From Methylomicrobium sp. wino1 (GTDB taxonomy: Bacteria > Pseudomonadota > Gammaproteobacteria > Methylococcales > Methylomonadaceae), in contig NZ_CP024202.1 in the NCBI RefSeq assembly GCF_003932755.1, forward strand, positions 868,001 to 932,000: a DNA stretch of 64,000 nucleotides, written 5' to 3'. Below, in pieces: positions 6,513 to 45,906 of this stretch (position 1 is the first letter of the stretch; each line of letters opens with the position of its first letter). A model generated the notes under the pieces. It was given only the letters and a program-made list of their open reading frames with translations. It ran no database searches and was not told the origin of the DNA. Made by a program: the position numbers and the translations under genes.

Positions 6513-8651
6513 TCATTTTTCGTCCAAATGCCAGACGCCGTCGGCGCCCAATAAACGTCTTTCCAGCCATTTCGTTATCGTGCTTCGATCCTTTCGGTAA
6601 ACTTCGGGACATTCCGATGTCGCCGAGCCATACGTTTCGATTCCGGTCAGCCAATTTTCCCAAGCGGCAATCGCATCCGACGAAAAACGCGGGTCGCCGG
6701 CATGACCCACGGCATATAAGTTTGCCGGTTCGTTCCTGCCCTTGACTTGCAGGCGCCCTAAGCGCCGGGCCGGATAATTCAATTGCCGGGCTGCGCCGAT
6801 AAAGTCTTCGGTGACGATGATCTCGGTATTGAACAAGCGGGTCAGGCTTTCCACTCGCGCGGCCAGATTCATCGGATCGCCTAAAATACCGAATTTTCTG
6901 ACGCCTTTTTTCGGCCCCAGATCGCCCATCACCACCGAACCCGCAGTCAAGCCGACACCGGCGTCGATAATCGCATGAATCCGTTTGAGCACATCGGCTT
7001 CAATTTTTCGATCATAGCGCTCTTCGAGCGTCGCAAAAAAACGTTTTTGCAATGTGACCAATTCCAACGCGGCCTGCAATGCATTGGCGCATGCCGATAC
7101 ATTCTCCCCTTCGTTGCATTGATAGGGCCAATAATAGCAAACCATATCGCCGACATAATCCTCCAACCAGCCATTGTATTTATCCTGAAGAATCAATGAG
7201 GTTTCACTCAAATAATCGTTCATTAGATTCAGCACTTCGGCCGGATCCTTAATGAAACCGGTCACGGTCGTATACCCGGCCAAATCGCTCATCAATACCA
7301 GCGCGAATCGACGCCGGTTTTGAAAGGTCTCGTTGGGTTTTAAGCTTATCAATAAATTATGAATTTGCCTCGGCATATAGTTGATAATCAGCTTGCCTTC
7401 CCGCGAACCGATGATCAAATGCATCCCTATCGTTTGGCCGACACCTGCGATAAAAACGATCATACTAGCCGTTACCGGCCAAAGTTGAACTAAGTCGTTC
7501 AAATAGCACAAAGACCCGACAGCAGCAATAAACAAGCCGCCGATAAGCCAAACAAAGCTCTGTTTCAAATAAGCGCCCGATAGGACGCCGATCATGGCCG
7601 CCGTCAAAAACAATGCCGCTTTTACCGGTAACGCGGGCGCTCTCGGATGATCTCGATTCAATAGCGTCTCGACCGCATCGGCCAAAAACTGCGCTCCGTG
7701 AGTCGGCAAATGAGGGCCGAACAAACCCGTCGTCATCGGCGTCACCAACACGTCGGTGGCTTCGTCGGGTGCAGTCAACTGAAACACGGCAACTTTATCC
7801 CTCAATAACGCGGCAGTCTGCTCTGCAATTTCGCTATCGCAAGACGCCAAGCGACTGACCGGTATCATCGGCCTATTGCCTTCTTCGGATATGACGAACT
7901 GCGGCTTGCTCAACCGTATTCGGCGGCATGGATGGCGGCCGTCGCATAGTTCGTCATCGGGTCCGTGCAAATATTCGTCGCCGGTATTTTGCGGAAGGAT
8001 AAATCGAGTCAGAGCAACGACGGCATGATCCGGGCTCAAATCCAACCATCGTGAGATGGGGCTGTTATTTTTAGTGACCAAGCGGTCGCTTGCTACCAAA
8101 CCGTGTTCGGGTACTGCGAAAGCGGCCTCCAAGCCGTACAGCAAGAAATCGGGAAGCGCTTCTTGACCGCTAAAATAGGGGGCAATTTTGAAATGTTCGA
8201 TAGCAAAGGCCGGCATTTGCAAAGGCGCGTTGCCTAATTCGCTATTACTCATTCGGCATTCGCCGGTAGGGGAAGCAGCACATCGAGGCTGCGACCATTG
8301 CACGGCGCCGGAGGGTTCGATACAAGCGGCATAAGGCATTCTGCCTTCCATTTCTTTCGAAACGACCGCGTCGAGAAAAACGCCCTTACCGCCAGCGGCA
8401 ATAATTCGTTCCGTAGCTTTGGCAAAAAGCGGTAAAGCCTGTTTACGGCCGACATCGATCGGGACGCCGTGATCCAAAACCACAACCGCAGTGTACCGCC
8501 AATCTTCCCGTGCTTGAAAGACCAACGCGGAATCGTGAATCCAGTCGTCGATAGCGGTATCCGCCAAGCGGTCCAGAATCAAGCCGGCCAAAAATGCCGC
8601 CGCGATTAGCGGTATCAACACAATCCATCGGTTGATCGGTAAATCAAGCAT
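6513..8651 (-). CDS. CHASE2-domain adenylate/guanylate cyclase
   Basis: About 712 residues. An N-terminal membrane helix is followed by a CHASE2 extracytoplasmic sensor region (about 40-330), three closely spaced membrane helices (about 335-430) and a class III cyclase catalytic domain. The cyclase core is clear: LVLMSDLAGYTTVT with its metal-binding Asp, EDYVGDMVCYYW and the FGILGDPMNLAARVESL block. Its ATG at 8651 overlaps the stop of the upstream gene (TGATG), which favours this start over an in-frame ATG at 8726. It should make a cyclic nucleotide in response to a periplasmic signal. Both Crp-family genes in this window (9896 and 50490) are possible readers of it; that is inference. Confidence 0.92.
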   Translation of the reverse strand: MLDLPINRWIVLIPLIAAAFLAGLILDRLADTAIDDWIHDSALVFQAREDWRYTAVVVLDHGVPIDVGRKQALPLFAKATERIIAAGGKGVFLDAVVSKEMEGRMPYAACIEPSGAVQWSQPRCAASPTGECRMSNSELGNAPLQMPAFAIEHFKIAPYFSGQEALPDFLLYGLEAAFAVPEHGLVASDRLVTKNNSPISRWLDLSPDHAVVALTRFILPQNTGDEYLHGPDDELCDGRHPCRRIRLSKPQFVISEEGNRPMIPVSRLASCDSEIAEQTAALLRDKVAVFQLTAPDEATDVLVTPMTTGLFGPHLPTHGAQFLADAVETLLNRDHPRAPALPVKAALFLTAAMIGVLSGAYLKQSFVWLIGGLFIAAVGSLCYLNDLVQLWPVTASMIVFIAGVGQTIGMHLIIGSREGKLIINYMPRQIHNLLISLKPNETFQNRRRFALVLMSDLAGYTTVTGFIKDPAEVLNLMNDYLSETSLILQDKYNGWLEDYVGDMVCYYWPYQCNEGENVSACANALQAALELVTLQKRFFATLEERYDRKIEADVLKRIHAIIDAGVGLTAGSVVMGDLGPKKGVRKFGILGDPMNLAARVESLTRLFNTEIIVTEDFIGAARQLNYPARRLGRLQVKGRNEPANLYAVGHAGDPRFSSDAIAAWENWLTGIETYGSATSECPEVYRKDRSTITKWLERRLLGADGVWHLDEK

Positions 8652-9379
8652 CAAAAAGTGCGGGTAAACTTTTGGCCCGTTCTTGTTGCCGGATAACGGT
8701 AGTCTTTGATGACGGCTTCGACACAATCCGAAAACCGGCCGCCTTCAGATCCTATGGACGATAGCGTAACGGACTCGGCGCGCCCCATCGAATCGACGTT
8801 CCATTGAACCGTGATTTTGCCGTCGACTTGAAAAAGATTCCGGCACAGTCCGATTTCAGGCTCTATGGCCTCGAAGATTTCGTCGATGCCGGCTTGCCGT
8901 TCATCGGCCGAATAGTTTCGCATCTTGACCGAAGTCGACATCGCAAGTTGCCCGCTGCCTAAGGTCTCGGAACGCTTGATCGCCGCGATAGCGCAAAAGA
9001 ATACGTTACTGCCGCCATGAACGCCGTCGCATTTGAGTTTATGGTCCACCCATCCGGTGCAATTTTTCAAATCGGTCGGCGTAATCCACGGCAAAAACAA
9101 GCTCGATACCGTGACTTCAAGCGGTGCGGACGAACCGTTTTGACAAACGAGTTGAAAATCCGCATCGGTTTCAGGCTTAGGTAACGATTTGATCCATAAT
9201 CTTGCGTCCCGGCTTAATTTAAAGACAGTCCCCAGGCCGACTTCGTTTCCCTTGGCGCAACGATCGTTTACGACTTCGACGCCTTGACTCTTGGCATCCA
9301 GATATTGGATGTTACTGCACTCCGAGGCCTGAACTTCAAGCCCCGTCAGTACTAAAAACGTAACGACTATGGTTTTCAT
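8651..9379 (-). CDS. Exported protein with AgmX/PglI-type C-terminal domain
   Basis: About 242 residues. The ATG at 9379 starts a signal peptide (MKTIVVTFLVLTGLEVQA) and has GGAGG nine bases upstream; the longer frame to 9496 lacks such features. The mature part is Cys-rich (Cys near residues 20, 39, 94, 117, 125 and 140). It ends in an AgmX/PglI C-terminal-like, TonB-C-like segment around VQWNVDSMGRAESVTL and VIKDYRYPAT. The protein is probably periplasmic and protein-interacting. It is the first gene of an operon with the CHASE2 cyclase (overlapping stop and start) and the DUF4384 kinase, so it may present a periplasmic cue to one of them. Confidence 0.75.
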   Translation of the reverse strand: MKTIVVTFLVLTGLEVQASECSNIQYLDAKSQGVEVVNDRCAKGNEVGLGTVFKLSRDARLWIKSLPKPETDADFQLVCQNGSSAPLEVTVSSLFLPWITPTDLKNCTGWVDHKLKCDGVHGGSNVFFCAIAAIKRSETLGSGQLAMSTSVKMRNYSADERQAGIDEIFEAIEPEIGLCRNLFQVDGKITVQWNVDSMGRAESVTLSSIGSEGGRFSDCVEAVIKDYRYPATRTGQKFTRTF

Positions 9380-9572
9380 AACAAATGACCTCCGGCAAAA
9401 CTCTGTTGAGTTACAACTTATTTTGACTACTCTATTGATAAAAGAACAATATTCGTCAACTTGCATTAAACGATTCGGGCTAAAACGCCCTTTCATTTAT
9501 TATGGTAAGCAATTAATTCTTTAATGTGCTAGCTTTGTAAATCAATATAAGGAAAAGCGATTTTTGCCAATG

Positions 9573-9850
9573 TATACCTTTCGCACTTCAAATTTCGGCA
9601 GTGCCAGAGGAGGCGCCTGGGTGTTCGGTCGATTTTTGCTCCTGCAAAATCGACATTCACGCCATCCATGGCGCTCATAAAGGCTTTGCCAGCATGGAGC
9701 TGGCATAGAGCCTACATGGACGTATTCACCCAGCACCTAAATTCCATAGTCCATTGGCTATGCTTAACCATCTGGGATAATTTAGGTGCTGGGTTCACGG
9801 CGTCCTTTAACGGACACCCAGGCGCCGAATTTTGATCTACGACGGGTATA
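9573..9850. repeat. Dispersed TATACC-ended element, copy A (278 bp)
   Basis: Left end TATACCTTTCGCACTTCAAA and right end, read inward on the other strand, TATACCCGTCGTAGATCAAA, each followed by TTCGGC. The ends form imperfect inverted repeats. The same two ends occur at 10718-10801 and 36719-36875 in the opposite orientation. The interior carries a hairpin module (CCCAGCACCTAAATT with its complement AATTTAGGTGCTGGG) that also occurs inside an unrelated element at 32209. There is no coding capacity, so it looks like a non-autonomous MITE-like repeat. Confidence 0.75.
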
Positions 9851-9895
9851 AATCGCCGAAATCATTACTTGATAACCAATCAAAGCAGAGTCGCC

Positions 9896-10561
9896 ATGGC
9901 CACCGATATTGACATTTTAAGAAACAACGGTTTATTCAGCGAATTGAACGACGAAGAACTTTCCGCTCTGGCAAAACTGACCCAAACCCGGACATTTCTG
10001 AAAAACTCGTTGATCTTATGCGAAGGCGATACTTCCAATGCCATGTACATCATACAAAAAGGCAAAGTCAACATTACCGTAACCAATGAAGACGGAAAGG
10101 AAATGATTCTTTCCACGTTGCAAGCGGGAGATAATTTCGGAGAATTGTCCCTACTTGACGAAGCCCCCCGGTCCGCAAATGCCGTCGCCCTCGAAAAATG
10201 CGAATTGATCGTTTTGCACAAAGCCGAATTCGTACAACTACTGACTCAAAACTCTGCAATCGCATTGGCGATCATACGTTATCTATGCGAGCGGGTAAGA
10301 TTTTTGACCAGCCTAGCCCATGGTTTGGCATTATTGGACGTCTACGGACGGCTCGTTAAACTGATACAAAGCCTGGCCGAACCGAATCAAGAGGGCCAAT
10401 TAGTCGTCGCGATACCGTTGACCCACAAAGATATCGCAATGCGGGTCGGCTCGTCGCGGGAGATGATCAGCCGTATCCTGAGCGAACTGGAAAAAGGCGG
10501 ATACGTCTCATGCGAAAACAAACACATTAAAATCAACAAAAAATTACCGTCAGCTTGGTAA
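9896..10561 (+). CDS. Crp/Fnr-family transcriptional regulator
   Basis: About 221 residues from the ATG at 9896; a TTG at 9869 would add nine. A cyclic-nucleotide-binding-type beta-roll (about 10-125) has GDTSNAMYIIQKGKVNI and GDNFGELSLLDEAPRSANAV. The second is a near-canonical phosphate-binding cassette with Glu and Arg in the expected places, so cAMP or cGMP binding is plausible. A dimerisation helix and a winged helix-turn-helix follow (THKDIAMRVGSSREMISRIL). No Fnr-type cysteine cluster is present, so it is not an iron-sulphur oxygen sensor. It stands alone between two copies of the dispersed repeat. Confidence 0.9.
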   Translation: MATDIDILRNNGLFSELNDEELSALAKLTQTRTFLKNSLILCEGDTSNAMYIIQKGKVNITVTNEDGKEMILSTLQAGDNFGELSLLDEAPRSANAVALEKCELIVLHKAEFVQLLTQNSAIALAIIRYLCERVRFLTSLAHGLALLDVYGRLVKLIQSLAEPNQEGQLVVAIPLTHKDIAMRVGSSREMISRILSELEKGGYVSCENKHIKINKKLPSAW

Positions 10562-13903: not shown

Positions 13904-14194
13904 TTAACGAATATCGACCGAACCTGTGTTCGCTACCGAATTACGGCCTATCGCTTGGGTGTTGGTCAAGGTGTTTTTAGACGCGTTGATCACGGTCGAT
14001 TTTTCGACTTTCGAACCGACCACGTTGATCGAACCGGTGCTAGCGGCACTGTTGCGGCCGATGGCTTGGGTATTGGTCAAGGTGTTTTTCGAAGCGTTGA
14101 TCAAGGTCGATTTTTCGATTTTGGAACCTTCGGCCATTGCCGATCCGCTGAAGACTGCGACCAATGCGACTGCTGCTAATGTATATTTTTTCAT
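13904..14194 (-). CDS. Small exported curlin-like repeat protein, left array copy 3 (last transcribed)
   Basis: 96 residues with a signal peptide ending SGSAMA. The mature chain is two imperfect copies of a roughly 36-residue unit, GSKxEKSTxINASKN followed by TLTNTQAIGRNSxAxTGS. Within the unit, Q, N at +5 and A/V at +7 (QAIGRNSA) resemble the curlin pattern Q-x-G-x-x-N-x-A, although the Gly is shifted by one. The chain is rich in Asn, Ser and Thr, has no Cys and is low-complexity: a plausible beta-solenoid or amyloid subunit. The protein is identical to the one at 14315. A good site (AAGAGG) precedes the ATG. The amyloid assignment is inference. Confidence 0.75.
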   Translation of the reverse strand: MKKYTLAAVALVAVFSGSAMAEGSKIEKSTLINASKNTLTNTQAIGRNSAASTGSINVVGSKVEKSTVINASKNTLTNTQAIGRNSVANTGSVDIR

Positions 14195-14314
14195 GACGTT
14201 TTCCTCTTGTGTTTTAAGTATTGGTTTTTTGTTACGGTTTTACTGTATCGTTTGGTTGTTTGTTTTGCGGTGAACCGTTCACGCTAAAATTGTGAACTAT
14301 TCACCGCTTCTGTA

Positions 14315-14605
14315 TTAGCGAATGTCCACCGAACCGGTGTTAGCCACCGAATTGCGGCCTATCGCCTGGGTGTTGGTCAAGGTGTTTTTAGACGCATTGA
14401 TCACGGTGGATTTTTCGACTTTCGAGCCGACCACGTTGATCGAACCGGTGCTAGCGGCACTGTTGCGGCCGATGGCTTGGGTATTGGTCAAGGTGTTTTT
14501 CGAAGCGTTGATCAAGGTCGATTTTTCGATTTTGGAACCTTCGGCCATTGCCGATCCGCTGAAGACTGCGACCAATGCGACTGCTGCTAATGTATATTTT
14601 TTCAT
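14315..14605 (-). CDS. Small exported curlin-like repeat protein, left array copy 2
   Basis: 96 residues, the same protein as the copy 411 bases away at 13904: signal peptide plus two INASKN/QAIGRNS units. The intergenic DNA is also nearly identical, so the duplication is recent or maintained by gene conversion. An inverted repeat (GCGGTGAA...TTCACCGC) separates each copy from the next. Confidence 0.75.
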   Translation of the reverse strand: MKKYTLAAVALVAVFSGSAMAEGSKIEKSTLINASKNTLTNTQAIGRNSAASTGSINVVGSKVEKSTVINASKNTLTNTQAIGRNSVANTGSVDIR

Positions 14606-14725
14606 GACGTTTTCCTCTTGTGTTTTAAGTATTGGTTTTTTGTTACGGTTTTACTGTATCGTTTGGTTGTTTGTTTTGCGGTGAACCGTTCACGCTAAAA
14701 TTGTGAACTATTCACCGCTTCTGTA

Positions 14726-15013
14726 TTAGCGAATGTCCACCGAACCGGTGTTAGCCACCGAATTGCGGCCTATCGCCTGGGTGTTGGTCAAGGTGTTTTT
14801 AGACGCATTGATCACGGTGGATTTTTCGACTTTCGAGCCGACCACGTTGATCGAACCGGTGCTCGCGGCGCTGTTGCGGCCGATGGCTTGCGTGTTGGTC
14901 AGCGTGTTTTTCGAGGCGTTGATCAAAGTCGATTTTTCGATTTTGGACCCTTCGGCCATTGCCGATCCGCTGAAGACTGCGACCAATGCGACTGCTACTG
15001 TGAATTTTTTCAT
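14726..15013 (-). CDS. Small exported curlin-like repeat protein, left array copy 1 (first transcribed)
   Basis: 95 residues. The signal peptide differs slightly (MKKFTVAVALVAVFSG), while the mature repeats match copies 2 and 3. It has more synonymous changes than the other two, so it is the probable parent. The upstream region lacks the repeated intergenic unit, so the array promoter should lie in 15014-15353. Homologues form a second, plus-strand array at 37031-38152. Confidence 0.75.
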   Translation of the reverse strand: MKKFTVAVALVAVFSGSAMAEGSKIEKSTLINASKNTLTNTQAIGRNSAASTGSINVVGSKVEKSTVINASKNTLTNTQAIGRNSVANTGSVDIR

Positions 15014-15353
15014 GACGTTTTCCTCTGGTTTTGATTATTTGATTTAGTTAAATTCGGGTTCGAACGTTTCGTTGAACTTGGGTACAGTATCCCGATTTGG
15101 AGAGGAAAACGCGGTGATCGAGTAACGCCGGTTCTGTGATTTATTCACGAACCGGATTCCGATGAATCATTGGTCGTTGTGTTTAATCGATCGGATTGAC
15201 GAATCATAGAAAAAGTAAATTTATTCTGATCACAGATCTTTCAAATTCAGGCGCGCCGCAATTCGATCTGGGTTTTGATTTAATTGAACCAATGTTTTTT
15301 ATGTACAAGTGGTAATTTGGATAGGCTAAACTGCGTTTTTTAGGATTGAGTGG
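15014..15353. other. Divergent intergenic region, likely promoters
   Basis: 340 bases between the minus-strand repeat-protein array and the plus-strand cation transporter gene. The array's ribosome site (AGAGGAAAACGTC) is at its left edge. AT-rich stretches (for example near 15205-15230) could hold promoters for both sides, but I cannot assign boxes with confidence. Confidence 0.4.
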
Positions 15354-35235: not shown

Positions 35236-36537
35236 ATGAAAAATAAAACTTTTAACCTCATCATCATTACGGCCTGTATATCGCTATCGGCATGCGCACC
35301 GAAACGTCACTATACCGACAACATAACGACTCGCCCCCTCGCTTCAGGAACAAGTACCCAAACCCGCGTATCGGCAGCGGTTGAGGAATGGCGAAATAGC
35401 GGCGTCAAGGTTTCGGCTGGGCAGAATTATCGGATATCGGCCAAAGGACAATGGCGGACTTATCCGACCTGCAATTTTACCGGCCCCGACGGCATCGGTT
35501 TATACAAGGCGTGGTGCGATAATTCTCCGTTATTCCCCACGATTATCGACGGATATAGTCATTCGACTCTAATCGCTAAAATCGGCCAACAGGGAAAGCC
35601 TTTCGTAGTCGGTTCGGACGTCACGTTTACGGCATCCGAAGACGGCCCCTTAATGTTCAGAACTAACGACGTAATCAACGGCAACCACGACAACGAAGGT
35701 TATGTCGATGTCGAAATTGCCTTTGCCGATTCTAATCCTGCAATCGCATCACCAAATCCCGCAATGATCACCCTGCCGCCCGGCACCCAACAATTGACAG
35801 CGTCATCGCCAACAGTGCAGCCCATGCCTAGCGCCGCCATTGATGCTATCGGAACTGTTCCGCTGCGTCGTATGGCTTTGGTTATCGGCAATAGCGCTTA
35901 TGACTTCAGTCCTTTAAAGAATCCGGTCAACGATGCCAAAGCCATGGCCGACTCCCTAAGCCGTTTAGGGTTTGAAGTCACGTTATTGCTTAATGGTAAT
36001 CAGGAGCAAATGGAAGCGGCGATCGATAAATTCGGACGGCAAATGAGTGCGGGGAAATTAGTCGGTTTATTCTATTTCGCAGGCCACGGCGTTCAGGTCG
36101 ACGGGTCAAATTACCTAATTCCGACGGATGCGGTCATTAAAAGGCAGTCCGATGTCCGTTATAAAGCGGTCAATATCGGGCAAGTATTGGGCGCAATGGA
36201 AGGCGAAGATAATTTACAAATCGTGATTTTAGATGCCTGCCGGGATAATCCGTTGCCGCGCAGTTTCCGGAGTGCCGGCCGGGGCCTCGCCAAAATAGAC
36301 GGACCAAAAGGCACCATTATCGGCTTTGCGACCAGTCCCGGTTCGGTTGCCGCCGACGGCGAAGATGACAACGGAATCTATACCAAGCATTTACTCAATA
36401 CTATGCAAGTTCCCGGACTCACGATAGAAGAAGTTTTCAAACGGGTCTTGCAAGGCGTCAATCAAGAAACCGGCGGCCAACAAATCCCTTGGATGGAATC
36501 GTCGTTTACTGGTAACTTTTTGTTTATACCGGAATAA
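35236..36537 (+). CDS. Caspase-like (peptidase C14) lipoprotein
   Basis: 433 residues. A lipobox signal, ITACISLSACA, predicts lipid attachment. Residues about 30-170 form a beta-rich domain with Cys. From about 210 a caspase p20-like domain begins: RMALVIGNSAYDFSPLKNPV, catalytic His in FYFAGHGVQVDG and catalytic Cys in IVILDACRDNP. Both catalytic residues are present. It acts outside the inner membrane. It is the first plus-strand gene of the curli-like locus, and a second caspase-like gene ends that locus at 46154. Confidence 0.9.
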   Translation: MKNKTFNLIIITACISLSACAPKRHYTDNITTRPLASGTSTQTRVSAAVEEWRNSGVKVSAGQNYRISAKGQWRTYPTCNFTGPDGIGLYKAWCDNSPLFPTIIDGYSHSTLIAKIGQQGKPFVVGSDVTFTASEDGPLMFRTNDVINGNHDNEGYVDVEIAFADSNPAIASPNPAMITLPPGTQQLTASSPTVQPMPSAAIDAIGTVPLRRMALVIGNSAYDFSPLKNPVNDAKAMADSLSRLGFEVTLLLNGNQEQMEAAIDKFGRQMSAGKLVGLFYFAGHGVQVDGSNYLIPTDAVIKRQSDVRYKAVNIGQVLGAMEGEDNLQIVILDACRDNPLPRSFRSAGRGLAKIDGPKGTIIGFATSPGSVAADGEDDNGIYTKHLLNTMQVPGLTIEEVFKRVLQGVNQETGGQQIPWMESSFTGNFLFIPE

Positions 36538-36875: not shown

Positions 36876-37030
36876 ACTTGGCCAGTCTCCGGGTGGAAAA
36901 AAAGCGCGATTATTTTGGCAATTTCCTGCCGGTCATTAAATCACAAATCGAATGTGAATGTTTCACATCGAAATCTCTCAGGAATGGTTAAACTGACCTC
37001 GAATTTTAAAACCACCACAGGAGAAACCAC

Positions 37031-37327
37031 ATGAAAACATTAACTACTTCACTACTTACATTAGCTTTAACTGCCGCCGTTTCGTCTTCCGCGTTCGCCG
37101 AAGGTTCGAAAATCGAAAAATCCACATTGATCAATGCATCCAAAAACACCTTGACTAATACCCAAGCAATCGGAAAAAACAGCTCGGCCAATACCGGCTC
37201 GATCAGCGTTGAAGGTTCTAAGGTCGAAAAATCCACAGTGATCAACGCATCGAAAAATACCTTAACCAATACCCAAGCAATCGGAAAAAACAGCTCGGCC
37301 AATACCGGCTCGGTCGATATCAAATAA
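37031..37327 (+). CDS. Small exported curlin-like repeat protein, right array copy 1
   Basis: 98 residues; AGGAG precedes the ATG. The signal peptide ends SSSAFA. The mature chain is two units of about 36 residues, GSKxEKSTxINASKN and TLTNTQAIGKNSSANTGS. Gln, Asn at +5 and Ala at +7 or +8 mimic curlin spacing, with alternating Ser/Thr/Asn expected of stacked beta-strands. It differs from the left-array proteins mainly by Lys for Arg and SSAN for SAAS. It is the likely secreted fibre subunit of this locus. Curlin relationship is inferred, not shown by overall similarity. Confidence 0.75.
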   Translation: MKTLTTSLLTLALTAAVSSSAFAEGSKIEKSTLINASKNTLTNTQAIGKNSSANTGSISVEGSKVEKSTVINASKNTLTNTQAIGKNSSANTGSVDIK

Positions 37328-37443
37328 CGAATTTAAGCTTAGGATGTGAATAAATCACGTTTTTTCCGTGATTACTTTACGCCCTTAAACCCGAGGCTCG
37401 GTTACACTGAACTCGAATTTTAAAACCACTCTGGAGAAACCAC

Positions 37444-37740
37444 ATGAAAACATTATCGACTTCACTATTTGCATTGGCTTTAACTGCCGCCGTTTCGTCT
37501 TCCGCGTTCGCCGAAGGTTCGAAAATCGAAAAATCCACATTGATCAATGCATCCAAAAACACCTTGACTAATACCCAAGCGATCGGAAAAAACAGCTCGG
37601 CCAATACCGGCTCGATCAGCGTCGAAGGTTCTAAGGTCGAAAAATCCACGGTGATCAACGCGTCCAAAAATACTTTAACCAATACCCAAGCAATCGGCAA
37701 AAATAGCTCGGCCAATACCGGCTCGGTCGATATCAAATAA
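37444..37740 (+). CDS. Small exported curlin-like repeat protein, right array copy 2
   Basis: 98 residues, with the same mature protein as copy 1; only the signal peptide differs (TSLFALALTAA). The spacer before it repeats the preceding one and carries the hairpin AATCACG...CGTGATT (37349-37371). Confidence 0.75.
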   Translation: MKTLSTSLFALALTAAVSSSAFAEGSKIEKSTLINASKNTLTNTQAIGKNSSANTGSISVEGSKVEKSTVINASKNTLTNTQAIGKNSSANTGSVDIK

Positions 37741-37855
37741 CGAATTTAAGCTTAGGATGTGAATAAATCACGTTTTTTCCGTGATTACTTTACGCCCTTA
37801 AACCCGAGGCTCGGTTACACTGACCTCATATTTTAAAACCACCAGGAGAAACCAC

Positions 37856-38152
37856 ATGAAAACATTATCGACTTCACTGCTTGCATTGGCTTTGACTGCC
37901 GCCGTTTCGTCTTCCGCGTTCGCCGAAGGTTCGAAAATCGAAAAGTCAACATTGATCAATGCGTCCAAAAACACCTTGACCAATACACAAGCGATCGGAA
38001 AAAACAGCTCGGCCAATACCGGCTCGATCAGCGTCGAAGGTTCTAAGGTCGAAAAATCCACTGTCATCAATGCGTCCAAAAACACCTTAACCAATACCCA
38101 AGCGATCGGAAAAAACAGCTCGGCTAATACCGGTTCGGTCGATATCAAGTAA
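37856..38152 (+). CDS. Small exported curlin-like repeat protein, right array copy 3
   Basis: 98 residues, with the same mature protein as copies 1 and 2 but more synonymous changes. It is followed within 75 bases by the small exported protein at 38225 and then the CsgG-like gene, so the array and the secretion genes probably share transcripts. Confidence 0.75.
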   Translation: MKTLSTSLLALALTAAVSSSAFAEGSKIEKSTLINASKNTLTNTQAIGKNSSANTGSISVEGSKVEKSTVINASKNTLTNTQAIGKNSSANTGSVDIK

Positions 38153-38224
38153 ATCTTAACCCTTACGGGAAGCCGGTTAGATTATTCAATCCGTCCGGTT
38201 TCCCTCTTAACGAGGAAGACGGCT

Positions 38225-38536
38225 ATGTCACTCATTCGATTGTGTACTTTTTTACTCATTATCGGCTTGCCCATAACGCCGCTTCTAGCCAACGATTTAG
38301 ACGACGGTATCGGCATTGATGAACCCATCAACGATAATATACAGCTCAATCCCAATATCGATTTTATAAAACGCAATGCCTTGGCAAAGGCGCGACGCAA
38401 GACCGATCAAAATTCCGGTTGCGGCGGTACAGGTAATCAAACCTTTGGTCCGGGCGCCAATTTACAAAATGCCACCATTGTCAACCTTTCGGATAACAGA
38501 CGCGCCAATTCGGTCTGCATCGAGCGAAGACGATAA
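38225..38536 (+). CDS. Small exported protein with a Gly/Asn-rich tail
   Basis: 103 residues; AGGAAG precedes the ATG. A signal peptide (TFLLIIGLPITPLLA) is followed by a charged acidic part and a C-terminal GCGGTGNQTFGPGANLQNA, then NLSDNRRANSVC. Two cysteines could form a disulphide. The tail's Gly-Asn-Gln pattern suggests a nucleator, chaperone or minor subunit of the nearby fibre proteins; HfaA or CsgE/F would be functional analogues, but I see no sequence match. It lies directly upstream of the CsgG-like gene. Confidence 0.65.
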   Translation: MSLIRLCTFLLIIGLPITPLLANDLDDGIGIDEPINDNIQLNPNIDFIKRNALAKARRKTDQNSGCGGTGNQTFGPGANLQNATIVNLSDNRRANSVCIERRR

Positions 38537-38574
38537 GCGTCCGAACACCAAATTTTTAGAAACGAGGTCGTGTT

Positions 38575-40122
38575 ATGAACAACTATAAACTCACTAGCGG
38601 TTTTCGAATCATTGGCTTGCCGCTCTTGCTCGTCGGCTGCGGTTTAAATCCGCAGAGTGCCGATATCGGACTCAATGAAACACTACCTGAAGCCAAGATC
38701 ACGATTTATCAACGCGCAATCAATAAATTGGGCTTGATGACCGAAATTTACAGCAACGAGCCGGTCAAAATCATGTCCAAGGAAGTGTTCGACAATACCG
38801 GGACTTCGGTAGCAACGAGCGGTGAAATTCCCCGTGACATCACTGAAATGGTCAAGAGTACCTTGAACGGAATCGGCGGGAACGTACTTTACATTCCTTA
38901 CGAACCTGAATTCATGCTCAATACCGCGCAAACCGGCTATAGCGGCTATGAGGATAAAATTCTGCCTCAGGTCATTTTATCGGGCGGTATCACCGAGTTC
39001 GATCGAGGCTTGGTCACGCAAGGCGATTCTTTCGATGTCGATATCGAAGTCAAAGAATACGGGCTTAATTTTTCCGATCAAAATAAATCTTCGTTGGCCA
39101 GCGTCACGTTGGATTTCAACATGATCGATTTCAAGACTTTTACCGGCTTACCGAGAATTCAGGCAATCAACGGTATCAAACTGCACAAGGCAACCAAAGA
39201 AGACAGTATCGGCTTTACGATCAAAAGCGTCACTTTCGGTGCCAAAGGCGAAATCAAAAAAGTTCAGGGTAGGCACGCCGCCGTCCGCTTATTGGTGCAA
39301 CTCAATATCATCCAATTGGTCGGTCGCTATCAAAAATTGCCTTATTGGCGCTTGATTCCCGGTGTCGAAGCCGACGAAGTCGTGATCGATCAAGTCCTGG
39401 CCGATTATTATTCAATGACTCGTCCGGAGCAAGTGGCCAAAGTACAGGAATTACTCTACTTACACGGCTACAAAGTACAACCTAGCGGACAACTGGACAG
39501 TCCGACGCAAAGCTCTTTACAAAATTTTGTTCAAAAGCACGGTTTACCAGGAACCGATTTGAATCAAGAGCTTTATCTTGCCTTGTATGAAAACGTACCG
39601 TTGAACCATGCAACCCGGCAACTGCGCAAAAATCTGATAGGACAGGGTACCTTCCATTATGCCGCTCATGAACCGATGACTTATAACCCGCCGGCCCCGG
39701 CGCCCGCACCGGCCCCGCAAACTTTTGTCGATGCATCGCCAGCTCCCGGCACGATATCGCTTAGAACCAACAAATCCGAATACCGTATCGGCGAACCGAT
39801 GCAAATTGATTTTACGGTCAGCGAACCGATGTACGTCCGTATCGTTCTAATCAATTCGGAAGGCAAAATCGACACGGTTTTCCCGAATATCTATCAACCC
39901 GATAATTATTGCTTACCGGGCAAATCCTACAGCATACCCGCACCCGGCGCCGATTTCACAATCGATGTCTCGGGCCCGGCCGGCACTGATAAACTGAGGG
40001 CTATAGCTGCTAAAAATCCGATTCCGGCCGATGCATTGTATTTCACCAACGACGGTCAATTCGACGAATCCAGAATGGCGGCCAATTCGGTTAAAGCCGC
40101 ACTCGACTATGTCATTCGATAA
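38575..40122 (+). CDS. CsgG/HfaB-like outer-membrane secretion lipoprotein fused to PG-binding-like and DUF4384 domains
   Basis: 515 residues. Lipobox LLLVGC places the lipid Cys at 22. Residues about 45-270 resemble CsgG: PVKIMSKEVFDNTGT (compare the DQTG block), a middle strand pair ILSGGITEFDRG, and AVRLLVQLNIIQLVGRYQKL then PYWRLIPG. A peptidoglycan-binding-like repeat follows (about 280-345, VAKVQELLYLHGYKV, SPTQSSLQNFVQKHG), then a Pro-Ala linker and DUF4384 (about 393-490, VFPNIYQPDNYCLPG). CsgG proteins form the pore that exports curlin. The extra domains could anchor the pore to the wall and sense a ligand. CsgG assignment is moderate; DUF4384 is firm. Confidence 0.7.
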   Translation: MNNYKLTSGFRIIGLPLLLVGCGLNPQSADIGLNETLPEAKITIYQRAINKLGLMTEIYSNEPVKIMSKEVFDNTGTSVATSGEIPRDITEMVKSTLNGIGGNVLYIPYEPEFMLNTAQTGYSGYEDKILPQVILSGGITEFDRGLVTQGDSFDVDIEVKEYGLNFSDQNKSSLASVTLDFNMIDFKTFTGLPRIQAINGIKLHKATKEDSIGFTIKSVTFGAKGEIKKVQGRHAAVRLLVQLNIIQLVGRYQKLPYWRLIPGVEADEVVIDQVLADYYSMTRPEQVAKVQELLYLHGYKVQPSGQLDSPTQSSLQNFVQKHGLPGTDLNQELYLALYENVPLNHATRQLRKNLIGQGTFHYAAHEPMTYNPPAPAPAPAPQTFVDASPAPGTISLRTNKSEYRIGEPMQIDFTVSEPMYVRIVLINSEGKIDTVFPNIYQPDNYCLPGKSYSIPAPGADFTIDVSGPAGTDKLRAIAAKNPIPADALYFTNDGQFDESRMAANSVKAALDYVIR

Positions 40123-40132
40123 GGTGGGCATT

Positions 40133-40435
40133 ATGAAAAAATTAACATTGCTTTTACTTGCCGGCCTGATTTTACAGGCCTGCGAAAATGCTCCGGTCAG
40201 GCGCGAGGAAATGATTTCCGAACATCCGGAGTGGGACAAGGAAATGGTCGAAGTCATCAAAGCCGGCTATCTGGTCAAAGGCATGGATCAGGATCAAGTC
40301 AAAGCGGCTTGGGGAAGGCCTTGCTGGAGCTGTACAGGCACCACTTCCGGAGATTGGGGTGAAGCCTGGGAATATTCCACGCAAGTGGTATTTTTCGGCA
40401 AAAACGGCAAAGTTACCCGTTGGGAACAAAAATAA
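40133..40435 (+). CDS. Small lipoprotein (SmpA/BamE-like fold possible)
   Basis: 100 residues from the ATG at 40133, 10 bases past the previous stop. The signal peptide ends in the lipobox LILQAC (Cys 17). The mature part has VIKAGYLVKGMDQDQVKAAW followed by GRP and a short beta end, VVFFGKNGKVTRWEQ. This is the layout of SmpA/OmlA-type small outer-membrane lipoproteins. It is a probable accessory of the CsgG-like pore by position. Confidence 0.75.
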   Translation: MKKLTLLLLAGLILQACENAPVRREEMISEHPEWDKEMVEVIKAGYLVKGMDQDQVKAAWGRPCWSCTGTTSGDWGEAWEYSTQVVFFGKNGKVTRWEQK

Positions 40436-40510
40436 GCCGGCAATTCTTTCTGAGCCGGTTTGATGAATAACACGAAACAATTCGTATTAAAAATTAAAGA
40501 GGTTAGTACC

Positions 40511-41101
40511 ATGAAACTACATCACTCTATCACCGCCGCCAGTGGTGCCCTTTTACTGGCTTTATACACCCTTAATACTCAAGCCGAGCAAGTACGCATG
40601 TACGATGCTCCCCCTAGTGCCGAGGAAATGGGCAAAGTTCTGTTCGGAGGTCAAACCAACAGTACTCCGGGAACCATGAAAATGCGTTCTATCAATTTCC
40701 AACCCAAAAGGAATGAACGGGCCGATGATTTAGCCATCGCCGAACGAGTCGAGGCGGAAAAAACCAGTATCGGTTTGCCGATTAAATTCGCCTATAACTC
40801 GGATGAAATTTTGCCCGAATCGCTACCATTCTTGGAAGAAGTCGGCAAAATGATGACGATGTCTGATTTTTCCGACAAGCGCTTGATCATCGAAGGCCAT
40901 ACCGATGCCGTCGGCTCTGCCTCTTATAATCTGGATTTATCCAGACGCAGAGCTCAATCCGTAAGAAATTATTTAGCGCGTAATTTCGGCGTCTCTTCGA
41001 ATCGATTGACCACCAAAGGGCTCGGAAAATCCAAACCCCTGCCGGGCCGCGACCCGTTCGATGCAGTCAACCGCAGAGTTCAGTTCTATAGCGCGAATTA
41101 A
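40511..41101 (+). CDS. OmpA-family peptidoglycan-associated protein
   Basis: 196 residues from the ATG at 40511 (GAGG upstream). It has a signal peptide, a short linker, then a C-terminal OmpA domain: IKFAYNSDEILPESLPFLEE, LIIEGHTDAVGSASYN, LDLSRRRAQSVRNYL and NRRVQFY. The Asp and Arg that bind diaminopimelate are present. No beta-barrel precedes it, so it is periplasmic and wall-bound. CsgG-like loci often include such an anchor. Confidence 0.88.
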   Translation: MKLHHSITAASGALLLALYTLNTQAEQVRMYDAPPSAEEMGKVLFGGQTNSTPGTMKMRSINFQPKRNERADDLAIAERVEAEKTSIGLPIKFAYNSDEILPESLPFLEEVGKMMTMSDFSDKRLIIEGHTDAVGSASYNLDLSRRRAQSVRNYLARNFGVSSNRLTTKGLGKSKPLPGRDPFDAVNRRVQFYSAN

Positions 41102-41143
41102 CAACGCGGCTTTTTTATTCGATTCGTCATCAGGAGACGCGCC

Positions 41144-41917
41144 ATGACAACGCAAGGAATACGAACACCCGATTTCCGGCCCGGACCACGGGCCGGCCGC
41201 CGACCACTCACTATCGGTCTGACCTTGAGTCTGTCCGTTTTATCACCATGGACGTCAGACGCTTTAGCAGGCCAAGCGACGACCGGCAAAATTATCATCG
41301 ACGGTGTCGTTTATGGCGGCAGCGATGCGCGTATCGAACAAGGCTCGGGAGTTTTAGGCAAAGAACGCCGCAATGTCGAGCCGTTTCGGGTAATCCATGT
41401 TGCCGCAGGAATCGACCTTAACTATCGTAACGGCCCGGCGCAAAGCATCGAGATCATCGGTGACCGAAATTTGATTCCGATTATCGAAACATCGGTTAGC
41501 GGCAGCGTTTTGACGATCGCCGGCCGAAAAAGCTATCAACAACATTTACCGCTGACGATCGAAATAACGAGCCCTAATCTGGAATCTCTTGCTCTCCATG
41601 GAGCCGGCGACATTCGCCTAACCGCTCTCAGACAAGAGTCGTTTGCTCTGACGCTCAACGGAAGCGGCAATGTGACCGCCGACGGACAGATCGACCGTTT
41701 CAGCGTGACCGTCAATGGCGCCGGCGATATCAATGCACAAGGATTGGTCAGCAAGTTGGCAGATATCCGGTTATCGGGTTCCGGGGATATTTCAGTTACT
41801 GCACGGGAAACATTGAAAGCCTATCTGATCGGTAGCGGCGAAATTACCTACTACGGGCGTCCGGCACACATCGAAAAACGCATAATCGGCAGCGGCGATC
41901 TGCAACCGGGAGATTAA
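41144..41917 (+). CDS. Exported GIN-domain (DUF2807) protein
   Basis: 257 residues; AGGAG precedes the ATG. The N-terminus is long before the hydrophobic core (LTIGLTLSLSVLSPW). The mature protein is a right-handed beta-solenoid-like GIN domain: repeated G-AGDI/SGN motifs, LHGAGDIRLTAL, LNGSGNVTADGQ, VNGAGDINAQGL, LSGSGDISVTAR, and the final IIGSGDLQPGD. It is likely an adhesin head or surface-layer part. It starts 42 bases after the OmpA-type gene. Confidence 0.88.
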   Translation: MTTQGIRTPDFRPGPRAGRRPLTIGLTLSLSVLSPWTSDALAGQATTGKIIIDGVVYGGSDARIEQGSGVLGKERRNVEPFRVIHVAAGIDLNYRNGPAQSIEIIGDRNLIPIIETSVSGSVLTIAGRKSYQQHLPLTIEITSPNLESLALHGAGDIRLTALRQESFALTLNGSGNVTADGQIDRFSVTVNGAGDINAQGLVSKLADIRLSGSGDISVTARETLKAYLIGSGEITYYGRPAHIEKRIIGSGDLQPGD

Positions 41918-42286
41918 ATGAAACTCACATGGCGCGGCGCTTGGGTCATTATGGCCGGTTCCCTCCTGATACTCGCGAACGGTTCCGCGCAAACCACTCA
42001 ATTGGCGGGAATCACATTCAGCGAATCGGAATCGCCGGCAATCAAACCGAAAGCGATGACTAAGCCGGAACTCAAGACTAAAAAATACCAATGGCACGAG
42101 TTGCACGGTAGTTTGAATAACCGGTATGTTTTTTTAATCGTGAAAAAAACCGGAACAAGAGACGTCACCGGCTATTTATTCGACGGCAAAGGCAACAAAA
42201 AATTCGTTTACGGCGAATGGTTCAATCGAAATTTACAGCTCTACGATCAATCCAACAAGCTGTTGAATATTTTACTGTATCCTTAG
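41918..42286 (+). CDS. Small exported protein, unknown function
   Basis: 122 residues; starts at the base after the previous stop, so it is coupled to the GIN-domain gene. The signal peptide (AWVIMAGSLLILANGSAQ) precedes a beta-rich, basic mature part (HELHGSLNNRYVFLIVKKT, VTGYLFDGKGNKKFVYG). No family recognised. Confidence 0.7.
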   Translation: MKLTWRGAWVIMAGSLLILANGSAQTTQLAGITFSESESPAIKPKAMTKPELKTKKYQWHELHGSLNNRYVFLIVKKTGTRDVTGYLFDGKGNKKFVYGEWFNRNLQLYDQSNKLLNILLYP

Positions 42287-42304: not shown

Positions 42305-42615
42305 CCGGCATGAGTTCTAAAAAGAAATCCGAATGATTGCAAGCGATGCTCAAAGCCCGGTCCCGGACCGTAATGACCCAGGCGGATTGAAACCGGTCAT
42401 GGACGGCTGCGGCGAGCATTCGATATTCGCAGCTTCCTTCATTAAGGCCTTGGATCGCAACGATACTTTGCTCGAGGCCAAGAATTGTACAGGTACAGGA
42501 ACGTATCGGCCAATATCGTAGCGATAGCAGCGAAGTACGGTATCGAGCAAGTTTCGCAATACGCGCCGACTAATCATGCGGGACATGAATCAGGGAAGTT
42601 TTTCTTTGTACCATG
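42305..42615 (+). pseudogene. Decayed duplicate of the C-terminus of the 46154 caspase-like gene
   Basis: Pieces in several frames match the end of the gene at 46154-48514: MLKARSRT-like text, GGLKPVMDG, EHSIFAASFIKALDRND, then a shifted YRNVSANIVAIAAKYGIEQV-like stretch and NHAGHESGKFFFVP. Small indels break it. It lies in the opposite orientation to the intact gene and is the only gene-like content in 42287-42982; the remainder of that gap is AT-rich promoter DNA. Confidence 0.8.
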
Positions 42616-42982
42616 TAGCGTTTTTTTGGCTCTTCCGGATTTCCCGTGGTAGAAGCCGTGCCAGTATTTTGGAATGACAAAGGCAATGAATAATAACATT
42701 TTTATCAGTAACTTAATTCTATTCTAATTTTGCGAATCGTTATCATTATGCATTGCCACGTGAAATCCTAGAGAGCCTTTTTTTATCTAGAATTTTGTCT
42801 TAAAATGCTTCGTCAAAGAAGACGGTATACTTGACATTCGTACAAATTGATCTATAAATCAATAATATATTTACACTTATAAGAAAAAAATTACAAAAAT
42901 ACTATAAGTCTATGTATCAAATGATTATGGTTGGTAGAATTTTTAAATCTTTAATATTTTTTAATGAACAGGGGGAGGGAGA

Positions 42983-44311
42983 ATGATGAAAAAAAATAAT
43001 TTCCGGGTCGATGATCCGAAAAGATTGACCTTAATAACGGCACCATTGTTATGCGGCATTTTAATCAACGATGTTTATGCGGCCGATGATAATCGGGAAT
43101 TTGTAAGTAACACAATTTTAAGTATTTGTCCGTCAGGTGTTCTTTTAGGCACCGAATTACAAGATCGCTGTAATGAACTAGTCACTGAAGGTAATGGAAT
43201 TATACCTAATAGCATTTTAACCCAAGTAACGTCCGAGCAAACTGCCGCACAAAAGTCGATTTCGTTGGAAATGAACAGCTCTCAGTTGGGACTTTTAAGC
43301 AATCGCATTAGCGCGATTAGAAGCGGCAGACAAGGCGGCGGATTGAATATCAGCGGCCTGATGATGGACAGCAACGGTAATCCGGTGTCATCCAACCAAT
43401 TGGCCAATTGGGGCGATTATCAAAATAAAGGTGCTGCCGGCGACGATAGCTACGAACGGCTAGGGGTTTTCGTCAACGGCAATATCGGCTTCGGCGATCG
43501 GCGGACTACGGTAAACGAAGCCGGCTACAATCTCGATACACACGGCGGAACCGTCGGCATGGACTACCGTTTTACCGATAACTTCCTGATGGGTATGGCG
43601 TTCGGTTATAACAACGCGACATCGAGATATAGGAATAATTTGGGCGATATGGAGGCCGATAACTATACCGGTGCGGTATACGCTTCGTTTTATACCGAAG
43701 ACGGTTTTTTCATCGACGGCATATTCAGTGGTAGCCACATAGATTACACGACCAGAAGACGGATTCAATATAACTTTGGTAATAATATCAACACCAATGC
43801 CATCGGCGATAATTCCGGTCGAGAATTCAACGTATCGATGAATACTGGCTATAACTTTAACGTCAGCGGCCTAACGATTACTCCGCAAGTTCGTGTCGAT
43901 TACACGAGTAGCCAAATCGACGCGCTTAATGAACGCGGCGGATTAGGCTGGGCGTTGCATGTAGATGATCAGGATTTTGATTCGATGCAGACCGCGGCCG
44001 GCTTGCAACTCAATTATGCGGTCAGTCTACCGTGGGCTGTCATCGTGCCGATGGCGCGGGCCGAATATATTCACGAATTCAAAAACGATCAAAGGAATAT
44101 CCAGGCATTTTTTATCCAGGATCCGACGCAAACCCGGTTCAACATTCAGACCGATAAACCGGACCGAGATTACATCGTGATGAGCGCGGGTGTTTCCGCA
44201 CAATTCATGCACGGCATTTCGGCATTCGTCAATTACGATACGGTACAAGCCCATTCCTTCGTCAACAACCATAATTTTTCAGGCGGTGTCAGAGTACAGG
44301 TTCCCTTTTAA
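42983..44311 (+). CDS. Autotransporter-type outer-membrane beta-barrel protein 1
   Basis: 442 residues; GGGAGGGAGA precedes the ATG. A signal region (LITAPLLCGILINDVYA) and a short N-terminal domain of about 140 residues (with SGRQGGGLNISGL) are followed by a 12-strand autotransporter barrel from about 160: RLGVFVNGNIGFGDRRTT, AFGYNNATSRY, and a terminal strand ending in Phe. The passenger is very short, so this may be a display anchor or a porin-like barrel. A paralogue lies at 44683 on the other strand. Confidence 0.85.
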   Translation: MMKKNNFRVDDPKRLTLITAPLLCGILINDVYAADDNREFVSNTILSICPSGVLLGTELQDRCNELVTEGNGIIPNSILTQVTSEQTAAQKSISLEMNSSQLGLLSNRISAIRSGRQGGGLNISGLMMDSNGNPVSSNQLANWGDYQNKGAAGDDSYERLGVFVNGNIGFGDRRTTVNEAGYNLDTHGGTVGMDYRFTDNFLMGMAFGYNNATSRYRNNLGDMEADNYTGAVYASFYTEDGFFIDGIFSGSHIDYTTRRRIQYNFGNNINTNAIGDNSGREFNVSMNTGYNFNVSGLTITPQVRVDYTSSQIDALNERGGLGWALHVDDQDFDSMQTAAGLQLNYAVSLPWAVIVPMARAEYIHEFKNDQRNIQAFFIQDPTQTRFNIQTDKPDRDYIVMSAGVSAQFMHGISAFVNYDTVQAHSFVNNHNFSGGVRVQVPF

Positions 44312-44682: not shown

Positions 44683-45906
44683 CTAGAAAGATACCGCCCA
44701 TCTTAAACCGCCGCTAAAGTTATGGTTATTAACGAACGAATGTGCTTGTACCGTATCGTAATTGGCAAATGCCGACAAACCATAAGCGAATTGCGCCGAA
44801 ACACCCGCATTCATAACAATGTAGTCTCTATCGGGATTATCGGTAATTACTGAAAACTGAGCAGTGGGATCAGCCACAAAACGTGCGTTAATTCGCCGGC
44901 TATCGTTTTCAAATTCATGAATGTACTCAGCTTTCGCACTTGGTACGATAACCGCCCATGGCAAACTCAGCGCATAAGAAAGTTGCAAACCGGCCGCGGT
45001 TTGCAACGACTCGAACTCTTGACTACCGATATGCAAAGCTAAACCCGCTCCACCTGTTTCAGTTAACGCATCAACCTGAGTCGTCGTGTAATCGACTCGC
45101 ACTTGAGGAGTCAAGGTCAGCCCTCCAAATGCCATGTTATAGCCGGTATTCATACTTACATTGAATTCATCACCCTGGGTATTTCCCTGAGCGCTCGTAT
45201 TTGCCACCGCAATATTTCTAATCGAGTCGTACTCTAGATGACTACCGGAAAAAATACCGTCAATAAAAAAACCGCTTTCGGTAAAAAATGACCCATAGAT
45301 TGCGCCGGTATAACTGTCATTTTCATTTCTTCCTAAACTATTAAAATACCGGGAAGTTGAATTGTTATATCCGAACGCTGCACCAAGGAGAAAATTATCG
45401 GTAATTCGATAATCCGCGCCAAAAGTCGCACCGTGCTCATCGAGATTGTAACCGAGTTCATTGACAGTTGTTCGTCTGTCGCCGAATCCGATATTACCGT
45501 TAACAAATATACCAAGTCTTTCATAACCGGTATCGCCCGCAGCAGCTTTGTTAGTTTGCCCTAGAGCTAGCGGGTTATTTACGTCATCAAACAACAAGCC
45601 GCTTAAATTCAAGCCGCCACCTTGACGCCCTCCTCTCACAGCAGCAACTCTTGCGCCGATCGACGATAGCTGTACATTGTTCATAGCTAATGCGTTCATA
45701 CTTTGAGCGGCAGTTTGCATGGATGAAAGTTGAGTAAGACCTTCTAAGCTTGTATCGCAAAATGAATTAACAGTACTAGAAATACTACCGCACATAGCGT
45801 TATTAACTTCTGTTTGATTAACAGTCTCCGTAGCAGATACTTGTCCCAATGGCATAAGCAAGCCACTTACTACCGAATAAACTAGCGATTTTTTAAAAAG
45901 ACTCAT
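44683..45906 (-). CDS. Autotransporter-type outer-membrane beta-barrel protein 2
   Basis: 407 residues; AAGGGGAG precedes the ATG. The signal peptide ends GQVSA. It has the same layout as the 42983 gene: short N-terminal part with GGRQGGGLNLSGL, barrel starting RLGIFVNGNIGFGDRRTT, C-terminal Phe. Convergent paralogues, similar mainly in the barrel and diverged in the N-terminus, suggest old duplication with selection on the exposed part. Confidence 0.85.
   Translation of the reverse strand: MSLFKKSLVYSVVSGLLMPLGQVSATETVNQTEVNNAMCGSISSTVNSFCDTSLEGLTQLSSMQTAAQSMNALAMNNVQLSSIGARVAAVRGGRQGGGLNLSGLLFDDVNNPLALGQTNKAAAGDTGYERLGIFVNGNIGFGDRRTTVNELGYNLDEHGATFGADYRITDNFLLGAAFGYNNSTSRYFNSLGRNENDSYTGAIYGSFFTESGFFIDGIFSGSHLEYDSIRNIAVANTSAQGNTQGDEFNVSMNTGYNMAFGGLTLTPQVRVDYTTTQVDALTETGGAGLALHIGSQEFESLQTAAGLQLSYALSLPWAVIVPSAKAEYIHEFENDSRRINARFVADPTAQFSVITDNPDRDYIVMNAGVSAQFAYGLSAFANYDTVQAHSFVNNHNFSGGLRWAVSF

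Follow-up and report, generated by a model that had tools for sequence, protein, structure and literature searches.

Genes at the locus and their distribution

The window analysed here is a 64-kb stretch of the genome of Methylomicrobium sp. wino1, which measures 5.06 Mb and is of the Methylotuvimicrobium kind. At 37031-42286 it carries an operon, all on the + strand with short gaps between genes, that probably encodes a CsgG-type (type VIII-like) system that builds wall-anchored fibres out of its own kind of subunit. The operon opens with three tandem subunit genes (37031..37327, 37444..37740 and 37856..38152), the first encoding a 98-aa exported protein with two 37-residue repeats and the other two yielding the same mature protein. 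There follow gly (38225..38536), encoding a small exported protein that is a candidate CsgF/CsgB-type adaptor or nucleator, and the gene for a 515-aa CsgG-like outer-membrane lipoprotein, the presumed pore (38575..40122), assigned with AlphaFold2 (AF2), Foldseek and Pfam. All genes named in a sequence-only reading of this DNA (the subunits, gly, two lipoproteins, an OmpA-type protein and a GIN protein, on one strand with short gaps) were found in place. That reading had also described the tandem genes as built from two identical repeats of about 36 residues. Three genes with two repeats each are indeed present, but the copies are near-identical (31/37 residues by our count) and their spacing, measured on close relatives, is 37.

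When named genomes were scanned with a profile of the CsgG-like part of the pore protein, 58 loci emerged; since the scan required one of two short peptide patterns, more distant members were missed. The holders are Methylococcales, a Chromatiaceae and a Nitrosomonas metagenome-assembled genome (MAG), many Desulfobacterota/Desulfuromonadia, Nitrospirota MAGs and an Elusimicrobia MAG (taxon names from record titles, MAG binning taken as is). Among them are Desulfobulbus elongatus DSM 2908, D. alkaliphilus DSM 24258, Geomonas sp. Red32 and Methylotuvimicrobium buryatense 5G (locus L042). The pore protein recurs at 93-94% identity in four genomes of the genus (G002 to G005). The system is patchy: the pore profile matches 7/369 genomes sampled from the class, and in two of these the match covers only a third of the profile.

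The three parts travel together. Clustering placed a repeat protein in 47 of the 58 loci and gly in 45, and a gly hidden Markov model (HMM) adds five more of the 58. For 46 loci the sequence preceding the pore gene exceeds 2.5 kb, and here clustering gives repeats in 41, gly in 39 and both in 36; the gly HMM, by adding L068, L074, L087 and L091, raises gly to 43/46 and both to 40/46. The repeat cluster is single-linkage and includes at least two non-repeat open reading frames (ORFs; L042:11647, L081:136). L076 and L089 are among the 41 by BLAST clustering only, the unit HMM counting 0 repeats in their one protein each, and the weak BLAST repeat match of L060 is not in that count. The HMM also finds one more gly in L140, beside repeats, on a contig other than that of the pore gene.

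Co-occurrence in whole genomes agrees. Across 61 related genomes, repeats are present in 14/14 with an uninterrupted match to the CsgG-like part and in 1/47 without one (Fisher 7e-13, a value that overstates independence because the genomes, with repeats in 5 genera, are related). The sole repeat-bearing genome among the 47, G001, is of the same genus and 79% complete. The 47 also include G013, whose 25% match spans residues 131-286 and contains four stops, and which has no repeats; among the 14, the match in G038 is truncated where its contig ends. Seven further pore-protein matches, in six genomes, are to DUF4384 only.

The subunits

Each of the three subunits has a Sec-type signal peptide (by eye) and a mature part of 75 residues. 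Their tandem DNA copies are 90-94% alike, and in the mature parts 8 to 17 of 225 bases differ with 0 amino-acid changes. As all these differences are silent, the genes are real and under strong selection. A repeat profile finds 11 matches in the whole genome: the three at the operon, three at 13904-15013 of the window and five scattered singly in differing surroundings. The eight further subunit genes beyond the operon's three, three of them inside the window, are new. The second array, overlooked in the sequence-only reading, lies on the - strand and consists of subunit genes 4 (14726..15013), 5 (14315..14605) and 6 (13904..14194), all repeat-profile matches.

The consensus of 290 repeat units from the loci is NSEVKGTVVNKANVKNSTNVAIGKGAEANMGSVNIK. 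A spacing of 36 is commonest (131 times), followed by 37 (21 times), and proteins in which the unit HMM counts any repeat have 2 to 16. The short two-repeat subunit recognised earlier is therefore real here, but this form is mainly one of Methylococcales. Near the main subunit gene, L066 (2-1468) and L063 (10691-11449, - strand) have extra long repeat proteins reaching the locus end. Along the unit, positions 2, 4, 6, 8, 10, 12, 14, 17, 19, 21, 23, 26, 28 and 30 to 33 are conserved, alternating and carry 0-1% charge, and positions 3, 5, 11, 13, 15, 24, 25 and 27 carry 34-56%. The sequence-only reading turned in part on the repeat proteins being beta-structured; AF2 models the 75-residue mature subunit as all-beta, with strands throughout (70 sequences, best pLDDT 97.2). 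Of 80 two-repeat segments, 67 entered the underlying alignment once duplicates and the most divergent ones had been removed; the window supplied three more.

The repeat profile matched no PDB sequence, and against CsgA it gave E 0.56, so that no sequence link was detected. Pentapeptide-repeat and AAA matches of the repeat proteins in Pfam were dropped as single and far below the cut-offs.

The gly protein

The gly family has a conserved DLDDGI front, a segment NxxFIxxxAxxxA and a C-terminal end that resembles one repeat turn, e.g. NSVVLGPGGNVRGDIIII (alignment of 40 of 42 listed gly proteins plus that of the window). Pfam searches with 41 gly proteins gave eight families, each in one member only. 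The CsgG-binding part of CsgF has been described as residues 1-36, and by our own count the CsgF stretch NPNNGAFLLNSAQAQN, the sole stretch on which an alignment with gly was obtained, falls within it. We take this alignment as a lead, not a result.

The presumed pore protein

By sequence, the pore protein is hardly recognisable as CsgG. The Pfam CsgG model matches it at a non-significant E of 0.073 and misses it in a whole-genome search too, while 7/12 members of our first alignment match at E 10 or better (best 2e-4). When PDB sequences were searched, the profile of the CsgG-like part found none, and the full profile found only weak peptidoglycan-binding and chance matches.

Structure prediction gives a clearer answer. 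The AF2 model (52 sequences, mean pLDDT 79.4) has four long strands at 133-230, matching in number the four strands that each CsgG subunit contributes to the barrel (PMC7738311). A Foldseek search of the PDB with this model returned CsgG structures at all ranks from 1 to 24, including membrane-bound and CsgF-bound forms, at E 3e-9 to 1e-5. The sequence-only reading had depended on the protein encoded at 38575 having the CsgG fold, and AF2 and Foldseek place it there: by its predicted fold, the pore protein belongs to the CsgG superfamily. The alignment behind the model contained 51 of 52 proteins over 390 aa plus the window protein; short, split or cut proteins (L060, L075, L090, L092, L096, L098) and the partial L094 were left out.

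The protein has an N-terminal lipobox (by eye), with Cys22 in at least 90% of the 52 members, and the hhalign alignment with CsgG retains the D-x-T-G motif. The constriction of CsgG has been described as a loop with Tyr51, Asn55 and Phe56. In the same low-probability alignment, the corresponding loop is five residues shorter than that of CsgG, Tyr51 falling in the gap and Asn55 and Phe56 standing opposite Ala80 and Thr81; its length is 15 residues in 51/52 members and 14 in one. The window protein has no aromatic residue in this loop, but Tyr80 occurs in 8/52 members and Phe82 in 9/52. The gate thus seems to differ from that of CsgG and may vary within the family, some members perhaps having an aromatic gate.

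The sequence-only reading had taken this protein for a lipoprotein with CsgG-like, peptidoglycan-binding-like and DUF4384 parts. DUF4384 is clear (Pfam E 3e-25) and the CsgG-like part is borne out by structure though not significantly by sequence; the peptidoglycan-binding match falls below the Pfam cut-off in the window protein (17.5 vs 23 bits), with 14/52 members matching at E 0.01 or better. Beyond this segment the tail is variable, with DUF4384 in 20/52 members (E 0.01) and TPR in two. For the idea that DUF4384 makes the pore ligand-sensing we found no evidence, and most members lack a DUF4384 match at that threshold.

A second gene matching Pfam CsgG (L139, G000:C1:2592062) was considered as the pore and rejected. 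It is a different gene, present in 5/6 genus genomes and set in other surroundings; its neighbours are two small lipoprotein-like ORFs, which we take to form with it the common CsgG/DUF4810/DUF799 trio.

Six genomes of the genus were also searched with models of the curli and Hfa components. CsgE (PF10627), CsgF (PF10614) and curlin repeats (PF07012) were each found in 0/6, the E. coli control being found every time; the earlier remark that full csgEF homologues are not visible thus holds for these six genomes. The HfaB model (NF037935) likewise matched 0/6, with the E. coli and Caulobacter controls found; the search did not extend to HfaA, HfaD or the holdfast polysaccharide genes. On three distant members the HfaB model gave one match at E 0.052. 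The relation to curli and Hfa proposed in the sequence-only reading therefore survives as a CsgG fold and a CsgG-like gene link, but not as membership: by the tests run, the system is neither curli nor Hfa.

Palindromes and candidate control of the subunit genes

The palindrome GTGA-N5-TCAC occurs eight times in the window, where base counting predicts about one, and all eight lie just upstream of the six repeat genes. Genes 1 to 4 have single sites (36954..36966, 37346..37358, 37759..37771 and 15136..15148, respectively), and genes 5 and 6 have paired ones (14681..14715 and 14270..14304). Five of the genome's 11 subunit copies have paired sites, five have single sites and one (L135) has no exact site. 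In six whole genomes, the paired palindrome occurs at 24 places, only beside subunit genes, against 0 for a control pattern. All but one of these pairs (23/24) lie 133-155 nt upstream of a mature subunit, serving 23 of the 44 repeat matches; the remaining one follows a subunit gene at a distance of 17 bases, close to where a contig ends. Because the upstream regions of paralogues are homologous, the 24 pairs are not independent events, and the point is that no pair occurs elsewhere. Across the 58 loci, a palindrome (N4 to N6) precedes 5/66 repeat genes: four belong to Methylococcales, and the fifth case is a pair in L066, a MAG locus. The operator is thus not shared by the system at large.

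Some kilobases from the second array, 4832-10561 holds in a row a Ser/Thr kinase with DUF4384 (4832-6490), a class III adenylate/guanylate cyclase (6513..8726, - strand), an uncharacterised protein and a CRP-like regulator (9869..10561, + strand), the cyclase and the regulator being recognised by Pfam. The last is a candidate controller of the subunit genes, and the cyclase a candidate signal source. The Methyloglobulus locus (L043) has, directly upstream of its subunit-gly-pore operon, relatives of three of these proteins, namely the cyclase (55%), the CRP-like protein (54%) and the third neighbour (27%), so that the cyclase/CRP-like module stands beside subunit genes in two genera. CRP-like relatives occur in the flanks of 4/58 loci (L043, L065, L046 and L058). 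Classical CRP sites have N6 spacing. As CRP-like genes are common and N5 differs from this spacing, control by the CRP-like protein is a guess.

Accessory and neighbouring genes

Downstream of the pore gene, the operon continues on the + strand with genes for a small BamE-like lipoprotein (40133..40435; Pfam BamE E 0.066, below the cut-off), an OmpA-type wall-binding protein (40511..41101; E 3e-19), a GIN/DUF2807 protein (41144..41917; E 3e-38) and a conserved 122-aa protein without an assigned role (41918..42286), kept in 11/58 loci by clustering. The BamE-like protein occurs in 15/58 loci by clustering and 17 by BLAST, OmpA in 18/58 and GIN in 21/58 (both by clustering). In the 31 loci outside the gamma/betaproteobacterial group, the counts are 0/31 for OmpA, 0/31 for the BamE-like protein and 5/31 for GIN, which makes all three look like accessories.

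Other neighbours recur elsewhere. In L091, L068, L076 and other Desulfobulbaceae, a double-FHA ABC transporter lies downstream of the pore gene (by Pfam for L091) with a Ser/Thr kinase nearby, a possible phospho-signalling link. In ten loci of Desulfobacterota and Nitrospirota (L061, L062, L063, L066, L069, L071, L074, L078, L079 and L097), a protein of our cluster 9 (LPP20-like by Pfam in L061) follows the pore gene, frequently accompanied by small proteins from clusters 5 and 11; L097 has a DegP-like protease.

Around the operon itself, a caspase-domain lipoprotein (35236-36537; Pfam E 1e-41) is encoded upstream of the subunit genes, in the same place in four same-genus genomes (L026-L029). 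Short ORFs at 42333-42652 resemble, by eye, a decayed copy of a caspase-like gene at 46154-48514, with matching fragments in L041. Two look-alike convergent genes (42983-44311 and 44683-45906) adjoin the operon, the first with an autotransporter domain and a short passenger.

A model of the system and its alternatives

Taken together, these results suggest the following model, in which secretion by the CsgG-like pore is the step we regard as very likely. Subunits would be exported by Sec and, still unfolded, would leave through a ring that the CsgG-like lipoprotein forms in the outer membrane. The peptidoglycan-binding part may fix the pore to the cell wall, in Methylococcales perhaps together with the OmpA protein. 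Outside, the subunits would fold into beta-solenoid rungs of about 36 residues and stack end to end. The gly protein could be CsgF and CsgB combined, plugging the pore with its front and starting or holding the fibre with its repeat-like end. In this genome, a single pore gene would serve all the multiplied and scattered subunit genes, and a dedicated operator would switch them, perhaps via the CRP-like protein and the neighbouring cyclase.

Several observations weigh against this model. The hhalign match of the pore protein to E. coli CsgG is weak (E 0.0026, probability 11.5%), and that of gly to CsgF is weaker (E 0.062, probability 0.9%). Much of the predicted hairpins, residues 141-170 and 201-230, has pLDDT 57-66, with pTM 0.58 for the model. 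The Foldseek superpositions on CsgG score only moderately (TM 0.38-0.56 by target length, rmsd 7-15), and the assignment is that of a monomer model, a ring like the nine-fold one of curli being presumed. The five AF2 models of the subunit reach pLDDT 97, 96, 95, 82 and, for the weakest, 58. For the two-rung subunit Foldseek found no relative, all six of its matches having an E of 4 or worse; FapC was the nominal best match, from which at such an E nothing is drawn. For perfect repeats, AF2 has been reported to predict solenoids that score with confidence yet do not exist, a danger that buried charges can signal (PMC11795689). This worry is lowered, not removed, because the presumed buried positions are uncharged and the alignment is diverse; which positions face inward is presumed from the alternation, not taken from coordinates. 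Linkage, too, has exceptions: L045 and L065 have neither repeats nor gly nearby, L046, L056 and L060 have no repeat counted and L050 has no gly. For two of these, repeats lie elsewhere: the genome of L045 holds one, and G011, of which L065 is a region, has them on other contigs, one array with gly adjoining. Related genomes and duplicated upstream regions are not independent observations. Finally, we infer pore activity, export, polymerisation and fibre formation, the role of gly and the acting regulator from genes and models.

The strongest alternative, unlikely though it seems to us, is secretion without fibres, the CsgG-like protein exporting small solenoid proteins that are soluble or coat the surface, binding ice, metal, polysaccharide or the S-layer. 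The fibres themselves are, after all, deduced, and the window subunits have only two rungs. Yet the CsgG-like proteins best known to us serve the multimer-forming subunits CsgA and HfaA, and the open edges of a two-rung solenoid would favour stacking. Beta-solenoids are common in non-fibre proteins (PMC10192328), MafA, an exporter of a non-fibre protein, may resemble CsgG (PMC7738311), and the S-layer of the genus is built by other genes (PMC11784148). On the other hand, repeat number varies from 2 to 16 here, much as it reaches up to 22 in CsgA homologues (PMC3521004).

It is rather improbable that nothing is secreted at all, the CsgG-like protein being a periplasmic wall-tethered lipoprotein of the FlgT or PelC sort and the repeats periplasmic stress or wall-spacing proteins. 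The peptidoglycan-binding, OmpA and BamE-like neighbours do point to the wall, and structures of FlgT, HpaA-type proteins, GNA1162 and PelC appear among Foldseek ranks 27-38; FlgT, HpaA and PelC are superfamily relatives not known as fibre pores, which also tells against our own model. However, these stand below 24 CsgG matches, the pore model has the four long hairpin strands, and linkage with dedicated Asn/Ser-rich repeat proteins across phyla resembles curli and Hfa. An ordinary diverged curli or Hfa operon, for which the CsgG fold, the high variability of curli subunits (PMC3521004) and the pairing of CsgG-like with CsgA-like proteins in HfaABD (PMC6707917) might speak, is hardly credible and as membership largely refuted, given the blank searches of six genus genomes with working controls and a 36-residue unit whose profile gave no significant match to CsgA.

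We therefore return to a CsgG-type system with wall-anchored fibres. More tentatively, and with rather less conviction, it may be regarded as a separate CsgG-dependent fibre branch over several phyla, with an independently evolved subunit of 36-residue rungs, gly as plug and starter in one, a wall-tethered pore with a different, shorter gate and, in methanotrophs, a scattered set of subunit genes run as one regulon by a cyclase/CRP-like switch. In the open-licence literature we found no description of the system among the matches listed: there were none for CsgG with DUF4384 and only unrelated ones for curli, methanotroph and CsgG. Among those listed for CsgG with Nitrospirota or Geobacter terms none mentioned CsgG, so that search says little. 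If the model is true, a fibre system whose subunits are unrelated, whose pore loop is shorter and in which neither CsgE nor CsgF can be recognised would test which parts are essential: gate, plug or nucleator. As natural building blocks of solenoids, subunits of about 75 residues would be very small, and the system sits in environmentally important groups: methanotrophs, sulfate reducers and Nitrospirota. M. buryatense 5GB1 has already been deleted for surface-protein genes (PMC11784148); since M. buryatense 5G carries the set, the idea is directly testable.

Comparison with known systems

Bench work on CsgG-type fibre or anchor systems has, to our knowledge, dealt with curli and Hfa. A surface protein coat of the same genus is the S-layer (hauberk) of Methylotuvimicrobium, which is made of other, distantly RsaA-like proteins, and the main text of the paper describing it does not name CsgG, curli or OmpA (PMC11784148). 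With HfaABD, the present system shares the pairing of a CsgG-like protein with a small amyloid-like subunit (PMC6707917), but it differs in that the HfaB model is unmatched in six genomes of the genus.

The likeness to curli goes further. In both, the gene of a CsgG-fold lipoprotein is accompanied by genes for exported proteins: small Asn/Ser-rich ones whose number of repeats varies, and a further small one with an accessory role. The predicted subunits here are all-beta and solenoid-like, as in curli. The differences are just as clear. CsgE, CsgF and curlin repeats have no matching counterpart here, and the unit has 36 residues, whereas that of curlin has about 23 with a QX10Q pattern (PMC10192328). 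Wall-binding-like and DUF4384 or TPR tails extend the pore protein, the loop that aligns with the CsgG constriction is five residues shorter and, in Methylotuvimicrobium, the subunit genes are dispersed and stand under an operator of their own.

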